Below, one piece after another: positions 597 through 52,734 of a stretch of 52,846 bases of DNA. A program made the position numbers and the translations under genes. The notes beneath the pieces were generated by a model, which saw nothing but the letters and a program-made list of their open reading frames with translations, was not told the DNA's origin and did no database searches. This stretch comes from a virus. The DNA lies in the IMG/VR virus record IMGVR_UViG_3300047457_000684, positions 1 to 52,846 of that record, one strand, 5' to 3'. Position 1 is the first letter of the stretch. Each line of letters starts with the position of its first letter.

Positions 597-977
597 ATGC
601 GGGCTCAGATCGTCGGCACTGAACTGCTCACCCGTCGATCATTTCGCGCCGACATCTTCCAGGCCTGGCAACACCGCTGCGCGTACTGCGGCGACCCAGC
701 ACAATCACTCGATCACATCATGCCCAAGGCCAGAGGCGGCCTCACCGTCCGTTCCAACCTGGCCGCAGCATGCCTCACCTGTAACCGCCGCAAGGGGCAC
801 AGGGAGGTGTTCTCGTGGTGGCGTGAGCAGCACTTTTGGTCCGAGATCGGTCAGTCACGCCTCATCGAATGGCTGACCTCAAACAACGAACAGTCAACAG
901 CAAACCCAGGCCCTTCTTCCCCTGGATCAGGAAAACCCATCCCGCAACGATCACGCGCCCAATGTTTGCAATCGTGA
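597..977 (+). CDS. HNH endonuclease, small, free-standing (intact in allele A)
   Basis: This 126-residue protein has a compact zinc-bound HNH (beta-beta-alpha metal) nuclease motif: C28-x2-C31, D39-H40, N54, C59-x2-C62 and H68 within about 45 residues. It opposes its neighbours, and its 3' end overlaps the end of the zinc-ribbon gene (851-1336) by 127 bp. Free-standing phage HNH proteins are typically homing nucleases or DNA-packaging partners; distance from the terminase favours a homing role. In allele B the same gene is cut: only codons from LTVRSN onward survive (50466-50627), fused to the repeat array. The start could also be slightly downstream. Confidence 0.8.
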   Translation: MRAQIVGTELLTRRSFRADIFQAWQHRCAYCGDPAQSLDHIMPKARGGLTVRSNLAAACLTCNRRKGHREVFSWWREQHFWSEIGQSRLIEWLTSNNEQSTANPGPSSPGSGKPIPQRSRAQCLQS

Positions 978-2909: not shown

Positions 2910-3143
2910 CTACATTTGCTCGTCGGTGTCGCTGAATTGTTGCTCGTACTCGGCGATGTGGTCCTCTGTCGCCTGCTCAGACAGGCAACTGAGCTGCAGA
3001 TCCAAGAACGTGGTGAGAGCGGCAAGATTGGCCACCATTTCAGACGCTTCAGGGCTGCTGGCATCACGAGCCAGCTGGGGGATCCAGTGAGCAATCCAGT
3101 CTTTGAGCGACTTCTTGGCGTTGAAGATCGTCGGGTGATACAT
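2910..3143 (-). CDS. Small acidic hypothetical protein with reiterated start region
   Basis: I choose this frame because its product (77 residues from MYHPTIFN, mixed charged helices, QFSDTDEQM end) looks like a natural protein, whereas the other frames are Ser/Pro/Arg-rich. The start codon lies in a 29-bp unit repeated three times (3120-3206), so several ATGs are possible; one frame stays open to 3233 and would give 107 residues. It sits between helicase and cytosine methyltransferase in allele A and has no counterpart in allele B. No recognised family. Confidence 0.5.
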   Translation of the reverse strand: MYHPTIFNAKKSLKDWIAHWIPQLARDASSPEASEMVANLAALTTFLDLQLSCLSEQATEDHIAEYEQQFSDTDEQM

Positions 3144-3206
3144 GGCAAGTTGAAGATCGTCGGGTGATACATGGCAAGTTGAAGATCGTCGGGTGATACA
3201 TGGCAA
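3120..3206. repeat. Three perfect 29-bp tandem repeats
   Basis: Units at 3120-3148, 3149-3177 and 3178-3206 are identical (each starts gttgaagatcgtcgggtgat and ends catggcaa). On the leftward strand each unit carries an ATG for MYHPTIFN, so the 5' end of the small gene has been copied. The 29-bp period shifts frame at every unit. There are no spacers, so it is not a CRISPR. Confidence 0.95.
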
Positions 3207-3237
3207 GCGGTTAACGCTGCCTTCTATTGCCATTGGC

Positions 3238-47052: not shown

Positions 47053-47481
47053 GTTCCACAACCATAGGCCTGGGGAATCACTGTGGAAATCCCAGGATGC
47101 GCTGTGCGTCAGAAACGCTGCGCACGATTCCAGAACACCCGCCAGCACTGGCCACATGGTCCAGAAAACGCTGCTGTTCCGGAGTTGCACGGCCTGTTGA
47201 TGACTTCACCTCCAGCGCCACGAACTGCGCGATGCCGTTCGTGGTGCGGTAGCCGATCAGGTCGGAGGATCCGACGCACAGCCCCGCATGGAGCGGTCGC
47301 CCGTTACGAACCACCACGTCACCAGGCCGCAGTGCTGCTGCTACGGCGCGGATATTGCCCGCTGAGACCCGTGTGGATGGCCCAGCCCAGCCGGTGCCGA
47401 CGTTGTTTCTCCACAGCCGGGCGTCTCCATGACCGCAGGCCATGAGGATGCGCTGCTGGGTTTCGTGTTCGCTCATGCCGT
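47053..47481. repeat. Left anchor of allele B; diverged copy of 1-429
   Basis: The first 48 bases are identical to the window start. Substitutions then appear at a low, steady rate through the VRR-NUC gene, as expected of two related strains, not of a sequencing duplicate. Confidence 0.9.
47078..47476 (-). CDS. VRR-NUC domain nuclease (allele B copy)
   Basis: 132 residues, nearly identical to the copy at 26-424; changes cluster around residues 15-19 (CGHGDARLW against CGSGSTRLW), 57-59 and 78-81. The catalytic GSSDLIG and LEVK blocks are unchanged. The two copies are allelic. Confidence 0.85.
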   Translation of the reverse strand: MSEHETQQRILMACGHGDARLWRNNVGTGWAGPSTRVSAGNIRAVAAALRPGDVVVRNGRPLHAGLCVGSSDLIGYRTTNGIAQFVALEVKSSTGRATPEQQRFLDHVASAGGCSGIVRSVSDAQRILGFPQ

Positions 47482-47613
47482 CCGTGCGTTTCCGACAGTC
47501 AACGGATGGCGAGTGACGTTCTGTGAACCGGCCCTGAGGTGGCGGTGATGCCGTCAGGCTGTGCGCAGCAACAGTAGGCAAACGAAACTATTCCATCGAA
47601 ATGACGGCAGTTA

Positions 47614-47636
47614 GCTATACGTTAGTAGCGTATAGC
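47614..47636. promoter_or_regulatory. Perfect 8-bp inverted repeat before the HNH gene
   Basis: GCTATACG-ttagtag-CGTATAGC, 46 bp before the HNH start and followed by an AT-rich stretch (gttatattttc). It is operator- or promoter-like in a GC-rich genome. Confidence 0.55.
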
Positions 47637-47681
47637 ATAGCGGCATGTTATATTTTCTAGGTTGATAGAATCGCAAATCAA

Positions 47682-48302
47682 ATGGCGGATCCCCGCAGCG
47701 CTGAGTACAGCCGCCGCTACCGCGAGCGCAAGGCCGGCCGGCTGCCTCCTCCCACGCTGCCTAAATGCCTGACATGCGGTAAGGAGCACAGGGGCGCACG
47801 CGGTCAATACTGCTCTAGATGCTGGCTGAAAACAGAAGAAGGGCGAGAATGGCAGCGGAATAGAGTTAAAGACTTTCGAGTCAGCAATCCTGAGTCAACG
47901 GCAAGAAATACGTTTGAAAACAACCGCAAGCGGGGGGCATTCCGTCGGGCTGGTCGCCGCAAAGCACTGGTGCCACTAACGCGAGAGCAGCTAAGAGCGC
48001 GATTTGCGTTGTTTGGAGATTCATGCGCCTACTGCGGTAAAGGTGGGAAGGTGTCAATTGATCATGTCATGCCACTGAGCAAAGGCGGGCTAGACGAATA
48101 CAGAAACGTTGTGCCAGCTTGCAAAACATGCAACAGCAGCAAGAACGCAAAAGACGTACAAGCTTGGTATTTACAGCAGCCGTTCTTTTCGCAGGCAAGA
48201 TGGGCAAGGCTACAGCGTCACTGTGTAGAAAGAGTTTGCGGTCAATTGTCATTGGCAATTTCGGATGCGACGCAACAAGCCAGATTGGAAGCTGTCACCT
48301 GA
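47682..48302 (+). CDS. HNH endonuclease, larger free-standing type
   Basis: 206 residues. An N-terminal zinc finger (CLTCGKEHRGARGQYCSRC) precedes a basic region. The HNH motif is CAYCGKGGKVSIDHVMPLSKGGLDEYRNVVPACKTCNSSKN, with D-H, N and C-x2-C pairs. It has its own AT-rich promoter region and terminator and is absent from allele A, so it behaves like a homing gene. It is not closely similar to the HNH at 597-977. Confidence 0.85.
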   Translation: MADPRSAEYSRRYRERKAGRLPPPTLPKCLTCGKEHRGARGQYCSRCWLKTEEGREWQRNRVKDFRVSNPESTARNTFENNRKRGAFRRAGRRKALVPLTREQLRARFALFGDSCAYCGKGGKVSIDHVMPLSKGGLDEYRNVVPACKTCNSSKNAKDVQAWYLQQPFFSQARWARLQRHCVERVCGQLSLAISDATQQARLEAVT

Positions 48303-48310
48303 CCAATTTC

Positions 48311-48333
48311 GCCCCTCACCCGAGGGGCTTTTT
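48311..48333 (+). terminator. Rho-independent terminator after HNH gene
   Basis: GCCCCTC-accc-GAGGGGC followed by TTTTT, 8 bp after the HNH stop codon. Confidence 0.9.
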
Positions 48334-48437
48334 CATGCCGTGCCACACTGGCACCGCCAGGTCGGCCCTACCGGTAACGCGGGCGCCGTGGTCGGCTTCG
48401 ATGGGGCCGATCTGTAACGGTACCGAAGGCCTGGTTA

Positions 48438-49916
48438 CTACGCAGGCAATGACAGCTGCTGCCACTGGCTGGCTGTGACTGTGCGGGCAACGCGGCGTTT
48501 TGGCCTCGCTGCAGCAGGCACAGCAGGACAGGTAATCGCCTCTAGCTGGTGCATGCCAGCTCCCATTGGCGCCGGGGCCATAGGGATCACGGCATCGGGC
48601 TTGGCACGCCGCAGGATGTTCACCGCTGCGTTGTGGTCGGCATTCATCGTGTGCCCGCAGCTGGTGCAGCGGAACAGCGACTGGCTGACGCGGCTGGCAC
48701 CGTCAACCACGCCGCACGCTGGACACGAACGGCTTGTATTGGTAGGGCTGACGCGCTCCACCGTGCGACCCAGGTCGCCAGCCTTCGCCTCCAGCATCGA
48801 ATACAGCCCGCCAATCCCTGCATCATGCAGTGCACGGTTCAGGCCAGCCTTCGACGCTGCATTGTTCGGCAGGTATCCGGTCCCATCCTTGTTCGGCTTT
48901 GCCGCCGGCCGCCGCACCATGTTCGCCAGCTTTAGATCCTCAACCACCACCGTCCCGTAGGTACGCAGCAGGTAGGTAGTGGTCTTGTGAGCGAACAGCT
49001 TTCGCGTGCGCCGGATTCGCTCATGCAGCAGCGCCAACTTCGCCACGGTCTTTTGCCAGTTGGCGCTGCCCTTCTGCTGCCGTGCCATCTGCTGTTGCAG
49101 CCGCTTCAGCTTGCGCAGCCCAGCAGCCAAAGCCGCAGGGCCGTCAATGTGCTTCCCGGTGCTGGTGGTGAGCGTGTGCGCCACGCCAGCATCGATACCA
49201 ACCGCTAACGACGTCTCGCGCACCTTCGGCGCTGCCACGTTGCCCACCAGCAGCAGATACCAGCCGGAGGGCTCGCGGCTCACCCTGAAGGTGCAGCACT
49301 CCAGACCGTCGGGCCATCGCCGACCATCACGGTTGCCCTTAATCCGCAGCTCGCCCAACACCGGCAACTTCACGATGTCGCCATGCACCGCCGTGGATTT
49401 CTTGCAGTCCTGATCGCTCAGTGTGGTGATCGGAAACCGATCAGACTTGAATCGCGGCATCTTCCGCTTGCCCTTGCGATACTCGCCCCACGCCGTAGCA
49501 AGAGCCTTCAGCGTACCGCGCAGCAGATTGTTGGGGCAGCCCTGCAGCTCCGGCCAGCTGGGGTGGTTCTTCTTGGCGAAGAACGACGCCAGGCTGAAAT
49601 AGCTGTCATTGCTCAGCCGCGGCTGCCGGTAATCCTGCGGGATCGGACAGCTCAGGCCGGCGCGACGATGCGTCCTGATCGTGCTGTATGGGATGGCCTG
49701 CCAGCTGTCGTCCGGGGCCTTCTGCCAGCGGTAGGACCACGGCACCGGGCAGCAGGGCGCTAGGGCCTTATCGGCTTTGTTGTAGTGACTGAAGGCCTCG
49801 ATCTCCTGCAGCAGGGCTAGGCCGTAGTTCCAAACCCGCCGCTGGAGCAGCAGCCAGGCCTCCAGCTGAGCCTCCTGGCTGCGGGTTGGGTAGGCTCTAA
49901 ACTCCAATGTGCGCAT
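48438..49916 (-). CDS. TnpB/Cas12-family RNA-guided nuclease candidate
   Basis: 492 residues from MRTLEFRAYPTRSQEAQL, a start that matches TnpB N-termini; a longer frame runs to 50081 but crosses the divergent gene. Expected RuvC residues are all present: D242 in VGIDAGV, E326 in VVVEDLK, D427 in MNADHNAAVNIL. A four-Cys zinc finger (C398, C401, C417, C420) follows SPTNTSRSC. The region 40-150 has an extra segment and the last 60 residues are an additional basic tail, making it longer than usual TnpB (about 350-420). No tnpA transposase is adjacent. A repeat mini-array and RHH gene lie upstream. It could be a TnpB or a miniature type V-U effector. Confidence 0.85.
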   Translation of the reverse strand: MRTLEFRAYPTRSQEAQLEAWLLLQRRVWNYGLALLQEIEAFSHYNKADKALAPCCPVPWSYRWQKAPDDSWQAIPYSTIRTHRRAGLSCPIPQDYRQPRLSNDSYFSLASFFAKKNHPSWPELQGCPNNLLRGTLKALATAWGEYRKGKRKMPRFKSDRFPITTLSDQDCKKSTAVHGDIVKLPVLGELRIKGNRDGRRWPDGLECCTFRVSREPSGWYLLLVGNVAAPKVRETSLAVGIDAGVAHTLTTSTGKHIDGPAALAAGLRKLKRLQQQMARQQKGSANWQKTVAKLALLHERIRRTRKLFAHKTTTYLLRTYGTVVVEDLKLANMVRRPAAKPNKDGTGYLPNNAASKAGLNRALHDAGIGGLYSMLEAKAGDLGRTVERVSPTNTSRSCPACGVVDGASRVSQSLFRCTSCGHTMNADHNAAVNILRRAKPDAVIPMAPAPMGAGMHQLEAITCPAVPAAARPKRRVARTVTASQWQQLSLPA

Positions 49917-49939
49917 GGCCCCTTGCCATCTGACGCGCA

Positions 49940-49950
49940 TCGTACTACGA
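49940..49950. promoter_or_regulatory. Operator-like palindrome between nuclease and RHH genes
   Basis: TCGTA-C-TACGA in the 41-bp divergent gap. Small two-fold symmetric sites are typical targets for RHH repressors, so the adjacent RHH protein may repress both genes. Confidence 0.5.
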
Positions 49951-49957
49951 TTGGAAC

Positions 49958-50137
49958 ATGGCTGAGGGGGTTCGGATCCAGCTTGTCGTTCCTGAAGGAC
50001 TGGCGACCGCTCTACGCGAGCGTGCAAAAGCCGAAGGGCGCACCGTCTCCAATCTGGGGGCGTTCCTACTGGAAACCGCACTCCGTCAACTACCTCCCCT
50101 GTTCGGGGGCTCGCCTGGGTTGGACCGGGAGAGTTGA
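49958..50137 (+). CDS. Ribbon-helix-helix protein divergent from the nuclease
   Basis: 59 residues (MAEGVRIQLVVPEGLATALR...). VRIQLVVPE forms the DNA-contacting strand, followed by GLATALRERAKAEGR and TVSNLGAFLLETALRQL as the two helices, a CopG/Arc-type pattern. Only 41 bp separate it from the divergent nuclease start, with a palindrome between. Such a gene next to tnpB-like genes suggests control of nuclease level. It is not closely similar to the RHH at 5789. Confidence 0.75.
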   Translation: MAEGVRIQLVVPEGLATALRERAKAEGRTVSNLGAFLLETALRQLPPLFGGSPGLDRES

Positions 50138-50312
50138 AACGCCTGCCCCTGGCCGCTTGCGGTGTCAGCAGGAAGCCACCTCAGTGGCATCTGCTCCCAT
50201 GGGGAGCACCCATCCCACAACGATCACATGCCCTCGATCGTTAGCTCATTTCCTGAGCTGCGCGCAGATGGCCCTGAAAGCCACTGCACTGCAACGGTTT
50301 TCAACACAGGGG
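50138..50312. ncRNA. Hairpin-rich stretch between RHH gene and array (tracr/omega-like candidate)
   Basis: Four consecutive inverted repeats: GCCAC-ctca-GTGGC (50175-50188), TGCTCCC-atg-GGGAGCA (50192-50208), ACGATC...GATCGT (50220-50241) and AGCTCA-tttcc-TGAGCT (50243-50259). No convincing frame crosses it. It could encode a structured guide-RNA scaffold. Against this, 50208-50233 matches 935-960 of allele A at 23 of 26 bases, so part may be a decayed fragment of the zinc-ribbon gene. Confidence 0.35.
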
Positions 50313-50465
50313 GTCTCTACTGTTGCTCTTGGGCAATAAGAAAGGGCTGATTCAGCAGTCTCTACTGTTGCTCTTGGGCAATTGATGGGCAACGGTGGGC
50401 AAGTGAGTGCTCGACACCAGGCAGGCCTGGTCTCTACTGTTGCTCTTGGGCAATTGATGGGCAAC
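50313..50465 (-). CRISPR. Mini repeat array, two perfect 36-bp repeats plus one partial
   Basis: Perfect 36-bp copies lie at 50358-50393 and 50430-50465, separated by a 36-bp unique spacer (50394-50429). A third copy (50313-50337) keeps 25 bp exactly, then 20 unrelated bases. On the strand of the nuclease the repeat starts GTTGCCCATCAATTGCC and ends GCAACAGTAGAGAC, and the kept 25 bp are its 3' part, the end that forms the crRNA handle in type V systems. GTTGC and GCAAC can pair within it. The small copy number means tandem duplication cannot be excluded. No cas1/cas2 are seen. Confidence 0.5.
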
Positions 50466-50627
50466 CTCACCGTCCGTTCCAACCTGGCCGCAGCATGCCT
50501 CACCTGTAACCGCCGCAAGGGGCACAGGGAGGTGTTCTCGTGGTGGCGTGAGCAACCCTACTGGAGCGAGCTTGGGCAGGCCCGCCTGATCGACTGGATC
50601 ACACATGCGTCCAGGTCTTGCGGTTGA
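50466..50627 (+). pseudogene. 3' remnant of the small HNH gene
   Basis: Bases 50466-50554 are identical to 741-829 and continue as a similar but diverged HNH tail (SWWREQPYWSELGQARLIDWI). The first half of the nuclease motif (C-x2-C and DH) is missing, replaced by the array. It overlaps the zinc-ribbon gene at 50599-50943, as in allele A. Confidence 0.85.
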
Positions 50628-50943
50628 CGATCCTGCTCACCGTGGCGGGGGCAATGCCGTATTCGGCAGCCAGCTGGTAGTTCGGCACGCCATCAGCAGC
50701 CTGCTGCCGCATCCGCCTTACGTCTTCCTCCAGCAGCACCGCAGCACCATTACGGCTGCCCGGCGCCTTCGGTCGCCCCAGCTGCGTGCCTGGCACGGGG
50801 CCAGGCTTGGTTGAGAACGGCCGCTCGATGGTGCGCTGCCTGAACCCGCAGCGACACCGATACCAGCGGTGCGTGCCATCGCTACGACGTTCGGTAACAA
50901 TCACCCGTAGCGCATTCACTGCGCCGCACTTCGGGCAGTTCAT
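50599..50943 (-). CDS. Zinc-ribbon plus HTH protein (allele B relative)
   Basis: 114 residues. N-terminal zinc ribbon (MNCPKCGAVNALRVIV...HRWYRCRCGF), basic linker (KPGPVPGTQLGRPKAPGSRNG) and HTH-like C-terminus (LEEDVRRMRQQAADGVPNYQLAAEYGIAPATVSRIVNRKTW). It corresponds in place and architecture to 851-1336 but is shorter, lacking the CxxC-HW-FPD end, and the sequence is strongly diverged. Start overlaps the upstream stop. Confidence 0.7.
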   Translation of the reverse strand: MNCPKCGAVNALRVIVTERRSDGTHRWYRCRCGFRQRTIERPFSTKPGPVPGTQLGRPKAPGSRNGAAVLLEEDVRRMRQQAADGVPNYQLAAEYGIAPATVSRIVNRKTWTHV

Positions 50944-51752
50944 TTACGACGCAATAATTCAAACGTCAGTCCCAACACTGGTACTGACCGGCCTTGCACA
51001 ATCGCATTGCTAATCGTTGCATGTGATACATGCAACTCACTTGCAGCAGCAGTCTGACTAGGCCATACCCTCCCAGTCTCTATGCACCGCACTCGATAAT
51101 CACTACTCCGCAATGGATGCTCACTGGCAACCTGTTCGGCCAACTCACGATCTTCCAGTAACGCGTATAACTGATCTACGCTGTATCCTCCAAGGATATG
51201 AGGCATCTCATGCGCAAGACGTCGCCATGCTGACCGCTTGACATACCACACATTACCAACCCTCAACGGCTCCAGTATCCTCTTAACTCCGTGCTGATGT
51301 ATCCATTTATTGACGCGTGAGTTTTTACAATTCAATATCTCAGCAACGACTCCAGTTGTTACCCACTCACCATTACGACCGCTGCACTGGTGACCCAGCT
51401 TGTATAGACGCACTGCAATCGCCTTAGGTGTGCGTACCGGCCAGCCGTGTTCCGCCGCTCGCTTTGCCATACGTTTGCACAGCAACGGAAACGGGACATC
51501 ACCAACGATTTTCTCAAGATACGCAGTCTCATCAGCTAACCATTTAGCCGCTGGTATTTTCGCTGTAATCGCGTTGCCATAACCTACTGCTATCCCAGAC
51601 CGTCGTAACCGTGCTGCAATAGATTTCCGCGTTCGTACTGGCCAGCTATTCACCTGGGCTAGCTCAGTCATCTGTTCCACGATCTCATCGAATCGCATCC
51701 GCCGCGCCAGATCCTCCAGCGCTTCCCGTTCTTCTGGCAGCCAGTTACTCAT
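50940..51752 (-). CDS. DNA-binding protein with IENR1/NUMOD-like C-terminus (allele B)
   Basis: 270 residues from MSNWLPEEREAL; a GGGGGAGGG ribosome-binding site precedes this ATG, so an upstream in-frame ATG is less likely. Similar to 1333-2148 in N-terminus (SWPVR-x-KSIAARLRRSGIAVGYGNAIT almost identical) and in the IENR1 end (YRVRCIETGRVWPSQTAAASELHVSHATISNAIVQGR), but diverged in the middle. It overlaps the methyltransferase stop by 8 bp. Confidence 0.7.
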   Translation of the reverse strand: MSNWLPEEREALEDLARRMRFDEIVEQMTELAQVNSWPVRTRKSIAARLRRSGIAVGYGNAITAKIPAAKWLADETAYLEKIVGDVPFPLLCKRMAKRAAEHGWPVRTPKAIAVRLYKLGHQCSGRNGEWVTTGVVAEILNCKNSRVNKWIHQHGVKRILEPLRVGNVWYVKRSAWRRLAHEMPHILGGYSVDQLYALLEDRELAEQVASEHPLRSSDYRVRCIETGRVWPSQTAAASELHVSHATISNAIVQGRSVPVLGLTFELLRRK

Positions 51753-52734
51753 GCCACCCTCCCCCGTTAAACAGTGTTTGTTGCTCATTGCCAATGCAGG
51801 CAGGCGACAGCCAAAGCCGCTCGCGGCGGCCGTTGAAGCTGTTAGTGCTGTAGCCAGCGCCTCCGCCCGCCTTGCCCTCAGTCACGGTCCAGCCGTGGCT
51901 CAGCAGCGGGTCGTGTTCGTCGTCGTAGCCGCAGAGGATGATCCGCAGCTCACGCGGTGCAGTGATGCACCACTCGCGCACGGCGATGGCGACATCACCA
52001 CCGGCATGGGCATAGAGATCGCCGCTGGTGGCGTAGGGCGGGTCAAGGAATATGGCGCGGCTGCCATCTCCTCCTGTCCCCGATCGGATTACGGATGGTT
52101 TCACCACCCGTTCCCATGATCCGCAGGTAATGCGCACGCGATGCAGCCGATTCGCCAACGCTTTCAAGTAGGCCTGCAGTTGGCCTCTCCCGGCGTTGCC
52201 CAGGTGGGGCAGCTCTCGATTCACGCCTTGCCCGGCGTCGCCCAGGTGGGGCAGCTCTCGATTCACGCCTCTCCCGGCGTCGCCTACTTTCCGCAGGTGG
52301 CCATCGACGACCCGCCACGGGCCAGGGCCGAACGGGTCACCGATGCCGCAGGCCAAGACGTATAGCCACCAGCCTGCGGCCTTCGCGTCGTGCGCTTCAG
52401 GATCGCCCTCCAGCCATGCCACAAGGTCGGGCGTTCGGCGTTCTTGTAGCCAGGCCAACCGGGCGTGATAGTCGATCTCCGCCACCGGACCCCATGCCGC
52501 AGCGGCGACGGCATCAGGGCTTAGCTGAATCGCGCGCCAGGCATTGATCAGCCAGCCGTCGACATCGTTCAGGGTCTCGACGCGGCGGCCCGTGAATGGC
52601 GGGCGGGCCAGCAACACGGCGGCAGATCCGGCGAACGGCTCGACATAGCCGGACGGATCACCCAGCGCCTGCCAGATGCGCGGCGCGGCGCGGCGTTTGC
52701 CGCCGAAATATGGAAACGGTGCAGCGAGAGTCAT
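51745..52734 (-). CDS. D12-class N6-adenine DNA methyltransferase (allele B only)
   Basis: 329 residues. FPYFGGKRRAA (residues 7-17), VEPFAGSAAVLL (motif I) and LDPPYATSG (motif IV, DPPY) define a Dam/D12-class adenine methyltransferase. A tandem duplication of 14 residues (GDAGRGVNRELPHL) lies near 175-205 in the target-recognition side. The start overlaps the helicase stop (ATGA). It occupies the slot of the cytosine methyltransferase in allele A. No restriction partner is seen. Confidence 0.92.
   Translation of the reverse strand: MTLAAPFPYFGGKRRAAPRIWQALGDPSGYVEPFAGSAAVLLARPPFTGRRVETLNDVDGWLINAWRAIQLSPDAVAAAAWGPVAEIDYHARLAWLQERRTPDLVAWLEGDPEAHDAKAAGWWLYVLACGIGDPFGPGPWRVVDGHLRKVGDAGRGVNRELPHLGDAGQGVNRELPHLGNAGRGQLQAYLKALANRLHRVRITCGSWERVVKPSVIRSGTGGDGSRAIFLDPPYATSGDLYAHAGGDVAIAVREWCITAPRELRIILCGYDDEHDPLLSHGWTVTEGKAGGGAGYSTNSFNGRRERLWLSPACIGNEQQTLFNGGGWHE
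52187..52290. repeat. 42-bp in-frame tandem repeats in the adenine methyltransferase
   Basis: Two nearly perfect 42-bp units plus a partial third (recurring ggcagctctcgattcacgcc) encode the GVNRELPHLGDAG-type repeat. The length is divisible by three, so the frame stays open. Confidence 0.85.

Follow-up and report, generated by a model that had tools for sequence, protein, structure and literature searches.

Positions 50,313 to 50,465 of a 52,846-nucleotide virus record (IMG/VR record IMGVR_UViG_3300047457_000684, positions 1 to 52,846; the whole stretch is called the window) contain short repeats that we read, with a probability of roughly 0.55, as the guide array of a small mobile element. 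This element would be related to the type V-U2 (C2c8) systems of clustered regularly interspaced short palindromic repeats (CRISPR), would carry a terminal guide in the style of TnpB and would spread by RNA-guided homing. At the level of sequence, the reading draws on the limits of the element, the family of its nuclease, a conserved and chimeric RNA, a last repeat that lies flush with the interrupted gene, and a perfect protospacer.

The limits were obtained from two versions of one module that occupy the ends of the contig in the same order, with amino acid identities of 93% for the resolvase, 87% for the HNH protein and 58% for the regulator. The version at 1-2160 is free of the element. 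Homology to this element-free copy extends up to 48434 and begins again at 50466 (limits 48434/48435 and 50465/50466), which yields the following features:

48435-50465, no strand assigned: the whole element, 2,031 bp, replacing a 176-bp target in the HNH gene (equivalent of 565-740)
50466-50627, plus strand: remainder (3' part) of the interrupted HNH gene, beginning with the terminal guide; the first 89 nt are identical to 741-829
597-977, plus strand: HNH gene, intact, of the module version without the element
741-776, plus strand: perfect match to the terminal guide (36/36), preceded by GCCAGAGGCGGC

The replaced 176 bp take in the first 48 codons of the HNH gene, and the first base after the last repeat is the start of its 3' half. 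The right flank is identical to the element-free copy at 89 of 89 nucleotides and identity then falls sharply. The terminal guide, consisting of the first 36 bases past the last repeat, is thus the flank of the right end of the element, and sequence comparison defines a site of the homing type, intact in the element-free allele and broken in the element-bearing one. The HNH family is frequent in phage contigs; 36 loci were found, and the 22 that were translated are all uninterrupted at this position. To the right of the insertion, the sequence is co-linear with that of L011. An earlier reading had put the array outside the mobile element, as homology to relatives stops near 50202; it was dropped given the element-free site and the chimeric RNA described below.

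The array contains two full repeats and one internal spacer:

50313-50337, plus strand: partial repeat, 25 nt, equal to the first 25 bases of the unit and starting 45 bp before the first full copy
50358-50393, plus strand: repeat 1 (36 nt)
50394-50429, plus strand: internal spacer, 36 nt, for which no target was found
50430-50465, plus strand: repeat 2 (36 nt), the right end of the element, flush with the HNH junction

Coordinates and sequence identity bear out the preliminary description of two perfect 36-bp repeats with a 36-bp spacer and a 25-bp third copy. The repeat unit, GTCTCTACTGTTGCTCTTGGGCAATTGATGGGCAAC on the plus strand, has a predicted stem-loop fold that leaves AAC unpaired. The expectation for an identical pair of 36-mers in about 4 kb is estimated to be near 1e-15, which excludes a chance origin. 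A simple 72-bp tandem duplication, which had been named as a finding that would speak against a CRISPR-like array, is ruled out because the sequences 3' of the copies differ. The 25-mer has no further occurrence in the contig at up to three mismatches and no exact occurrence in other IMG/VR contigs. In a search that covered phage and plasmid collections, the repeat had no match among plasmids and only chance-level matches among phages.

Two genes are the only recognisable open reading frames (ORFs) within the element:

48438-49916, minus strand: C2c8 (V-U2) Cas12-type nuclease, 492 amino acids from ATG, assigned by NF038192, RuvC alignment and tree
49958-50137, plus strand: ribbon-helix-helix (RHH) protein, 59 amino acids (PF07878, E=1.2e-12), divergent from the nuclease
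49923-49951, plus strand: promoter-like site preceding the RHH gene, recognised only by its match to the consensus (0.4 such matches expected by chance)

The nuclease scores 361.9 bits against NF038192, just over the curated NCBI cut-off of 350. Its reading frame is open and the D/E/D residues of RuvC are present in an alignment with ISDra2 TnpB. The tree places it inside the C2c8 clade (100/100) and separates it from four TnpB proteins; five phage relatives from IMG/VR join it in a supported group (100/99). The earlier proposal of a CRISPR-like array tied to a type V nuclease is upheld by these results. Queries with two strict peptide patterns only retrieved no relatives of the nuclease from the genome_contigs collection. 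An RHH gene is annotated at the equivalent place beside the c2c8 gene of Microcystis. The promoter-like site could also drive the RNA and the array.

Between the RHH gene and the array lies a sequence that recurs in the relatives:

50111-50208, plus strand: structured, tracrRNA-like (trans-activating CRISPR RNA) scaffold RNA of about 98 nt, identified by covariation and a model match of 115 bits (the window copy is one of the 12 model members)
50209-50312, plus strand: linker from the scaffold RNA to the array, the place of the anti-repeat in relatives; none was detected here

An alignment of 12 copies contains 26 base pairs, 14 of which show compensatory changes on both sides, indicating that the sequence acts as RNA; the window copy retains all stems of the alignment. 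Inverted copies of this RNA of about 98 nt bracket the nuclease and RHH genes in L004-L009, the close relatives from IMG/VR. The covariance model also recovers distant homologues in L010 (E=1.6e-5) and in the cyanophage vB_AphaS-CL131 (hereafter CL131; E=0.012), each on the same strand as the nuclease gene and the array and situated between the array and the conserved part of that gene. Just 3' of the RNA an anti-repeat is found in L010 (0 of 60 shuffles as good) and in CL131 (2 of 60). In L005, none of 60 shuffles was as good for one of the two repeats tested; in L007 and in L009 one repeat gives a suggestive result (5 of 60), and L004 and L008 are not significant against shuffles. The scaffold RNA is therefore read as probably a tracrRNA, a split form of the omegaRNA scaffold; a tracrRNA with an anti-repeat as a mark of V-U2 is a proposal of the present analysis, not an established criterion.

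The window RNA is a chimera of the left and right types found in the relatives. Diagnostic positions up to 50136 are of the left type (50133 is ambiguous) and those from 50148 onwards of the right type, with the breakpoint between 50136 and 50148. Recombination between inverted RNA copies probably flipped the nuclease cassette relative to the array, an event that would generate exactly the chimera seen and would account for the location of array and nuclease on opposite strands. A second RNA copy of the window element was not found by the covariance model, and the left limit of the element lies 3 nt past the stop codon of the nuclease gene.

Further observations concern the distribution of the RNA. 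A solo scaffold copy lies between two genes of another phage (L060, 7451-7543), in a contig without a C2c8 gene. The left-hand copies of the relatives (L004 2013-2108, L005 1955-2049, L007 3867-3962, L008 2712-2809, L009 1934-2031, minus strand) have no array; several end a few bases from the stop codon of the neighbouring gene and read antisense into that gene. They might be omegaRNA-like single guides, or merely ends of the element. Scaffold candidates in L070 and L071 fail the covariance model and are chance pattern matches, the scaffold pattern gave no match in the genome_contigs collection, and an Rfam search returned nothing. Integron attC-like ends were rejected on account of a misfit of the core motif.

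Four features place the array on the plus strand, opposite to the nuclease: the adjoining conserved scaffold RNA reads on that strand; the plus-strand repeat ends in GGCAAC, as is common for the repeats of L007-L009, which mostly end in GGCAAC or AGCAAC; the likeness to the L010 array repeat, GCTCTT-GGGC(A/G)ATTG, exists in the plus orientation only (shuffle p=0.00075, eight comparisons uncorrected); and the plus-strand array ends flush at the junction with the target gene. The same features reject the minus-strand orientation with a 3' handle ending in AGTAGAGAC, in which the preliminary description had placed the array on the strand of the nuclease. On the plus strand, the 25-bp copy retains the 5' part of the repeat and not, as had been supposed, its guide-proximal 3' end. 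In L004, L005, L007, L008 and L009, one to five short hairpin repeats with unrelated spacers follow the right-hand RNA, and in L010, CL131, Microcystis and Gloeobacter the array lies 3' of the C2c8 gene on the same strand. The window departs from this V-U2 layout, its array lying 5' of the gene on the opposite strand. In L008, the left-flank sequence at the stop codon, GGGAACCCTGA (similar in L005), recurs after the last right-hand repeat, like a target duplication.

In the proposed mechanism, a plus-strand transcript would supply the tracrRNA-like scaffold and one or two CRISPR RNAs (crRNAs), which the C2c8 nuclease would use to cut DNA. Since the element finishes on its right side with the 3' end of a repeat, the sequence flanking the insertion site would serve as the last guide, as it does in the omegaRNA of TnpB. 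Such a guide would address element-free HNH genes and would spare the element's own site, because there the sequence 5' of the protospacer, at the position of the protospacer-adjacent motif (PAM), has been replaced by the repeat. Homing of this kind predicts that the target CTCACCGTCCGTTCCAACCT would be cut or bound with a 5' motif that fits GCCAGAGGCGGC but not with GATGGGCAAC. During mixed infection, an element-free phage genome would be cut and then repaired from an element-bearing genome, whereby the element would be copied and the HNH gene inactivated. Co-conversion would leave a sharply limited stretch of identity such as the 89/89 block next to the insertion, which is only suggestive. 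The inversion of the cassette behind the chimera, transcription, guide loading, cleavage and homing are the steps that we infer.

A number of observations weigh against a homing element of this kind. The preliminary description had pointed to the internal spacer and to the bases following each repeat on the leftward strand as sequences that might have targets; the bases after the last plus-strand repeat gave the perfect match in the HNH gene, whereas the spacer 50394-50429 has no target in IMG/VR and none beyond chance in the phage and plasmid collections. With only one internal spacer, the array gives no basis for judging spacer variation. In the linker of the window, 21 of 60 shuffles were as good as the best candidate anti-repeat, and the window RNA by itself is no stabler than shuffled sequences, so that covariation is the evidence for the RNA. 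The nearest element-free allele for L009 is too diverged for an exact comparison of flank and guide, and no relative gave one. Finally, both versions of the module lie in one contig, which may mean that two strains entered the assembly.

A rival reading is a decayed relic, a V-U2-derived element that was inserted earlier, whose array has shrunk, whose second RNA copy was lost and of which nothing is used now. Two full repeats and one partial copy, the undetected anti-repeat and the missing second RNA copy agree with such decay. We nevertheless consider it unlikely, since the nuclease gene is open and retains its catalytic residues, the two full repeats are identical, the scaffold RNA keeps all its stems and the flank still matches the element-free allele perfectly. 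Decidedly unlikely, in our judgement, is a V-U2 array of the phage that acts against rival phages or in gene regulation, with the HNH flank as an accidental insertion site without a guide role: the last repeat ends exactly at the break in the HNH gene, such that any processing of the last unit yields an HNH guide, and none of the collections searched contains a match to the internal spacer. In its favour, V-U2 arrays with several spacers have been published for CL131 (PMC6293099), and the relatives have one to five units with differing spacers. The first array spacer of L007 (position 5833) agrees at 18 of 20 bases with sequence in the phages L013, L014 and L033, where the 5' flank is GCATCGGA; this match is weak after allowing for the spacers tested (about 0.02 expected by chance, an estimate).

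Viral mini-arrays with host-like repeats that use the CRISPR-Cas proteins of the host are known (PMC11656645). For the window such an arrangement is highly improbable, as a C2c8 gene and the scaffold RNA adjoin the array, the repeat resembles the C2c8-linked repeat of L010, and it lacks a match in the plasmid and phage collections. RHH proteins often bind repeated operators, and the 89-nt identical block could have let the assembler switch strains; that the repeats are no guide array at all, and instead operator sites or a product of mis-assembly, is nonetheless scarcely credible. About 350 bp separate the repeats from the start of the RHH gene, and 36-nt repeats with a 36-nt spacer lie 3' of the scaffold RNA as in the arrays of the relatives. 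Even a false join would require the bases directly following the last repeat to be shared, so that the beginning of the terminal guide would be genuine all the same.

As for the surroundings of the element, the window, a 52.8-kb virus record, encodes a large terminase that is nearest to those of Synechococcus phages S-CBS1 and S-CBS3 (about 62%). The two diverged module versions (resolvase, HNH, helix-turn-helix protein, regulator, methyltransferase) occupy 1-2160 and 47053-51762; the module is either truly duplicated, or a circular genome was assembled by way of two strain variants. At 47682-48302 (plus strand), just left of the element, lies another HNH gene, which differs from the first and is present only in the element-bearing version. 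Tandem repeats occur at 52183-52284 (42-bp unit, in a D12-type methyltransferase gene) and at 3120-3207 (three perfect 29-bp copies).

Beyond the homing element of the window, we tentatively consider a more general proposal, which we would not expect to hold in full. The relatives might constitute a family of cyanophage elements. In these, a single structured RNA would form both the inverted ends of the cassette and the tracrRNA, the last guide of the array would always be the insertion flank, the cassette would flip by recombination between RNA copies, and HNH endonuclease genes would be knocked out; such a family could be a living intermediate between omegaRNA homing by TnpB and V-U2 CRISPR. 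The V-U2 locus of CL131 was published without a tracrRNA, array direction or function being assigned (PMC6293099), and a TnpB gene drive on plasmids has been described (PMC11870625). The literature search, outside which most subscription papers lay, found no description of a C2c8 element that is flanked by inverted tracrRNA-like copies, takes its terminal guide from the flank or has an element-free counterpart allele; the novelty of an element with these features is provisional. For V-U2, the locus and its relatives yield a covarying scaffold RNA, the direction of the array and a probable cassette inversion. A natural perfect target and an element-free allele in the same contig are unusual and make RNA-guided homing by a phage Cas12-type nuclease directly testable. 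The locus is also relevant to the origin of CRISPR arrays from TnpB guides.

The element shares with V-U2 systems (C2c8; CL131, PMC6293099; Microcystis plasmid p1) the effector family, a minimal locus that lacks adaptation genes, a repeat length of about 36 nt, the divergent RHH gene (Microcystis) and the homologous scaffold RNA between gene and array (CL131). It differs in its array of only two repeats on the opposite strand at the 5' side of the nuclease gene, in the inverted scaffold copies that bracket the cassette in its close relatives, and in a last guide that equals the insertion flank. With TnpB and omegaRNA of IS200/IS605 (PMC11870625) it has in common a right end flush with the target, a guide formed by the flank and the addressing of element-free copies. 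Unlike these elements, it encodes a nuclease on the C2c8 side of the 100/100 branch, has no TnpA among its recognisable ORFs, possesses separate repeats and a tracrRNA-like scaffold, and deleted target sequence on insertion. Phage homing endonuclease genes, such as the free-standing HNH genes, likewise interrupt a gene at the would-be recognition site and are accompanied by a short block of high identity, as co-conversion leaves; here, however, recognition would be by RNA, and the element sits in an HNH gene of a type often taken to be a homing gene itself. Intermediates on the path from TnpB to Cas12 with a split guide RNA are represented by the TranC systems. These resemble the window element in having a scaffold RNA and separate repeat units beside a TnpB-like nuclease, whereas the window element belongs to a phage-borne C2c8 lineage whose relatives carry inverted scaffold copies.
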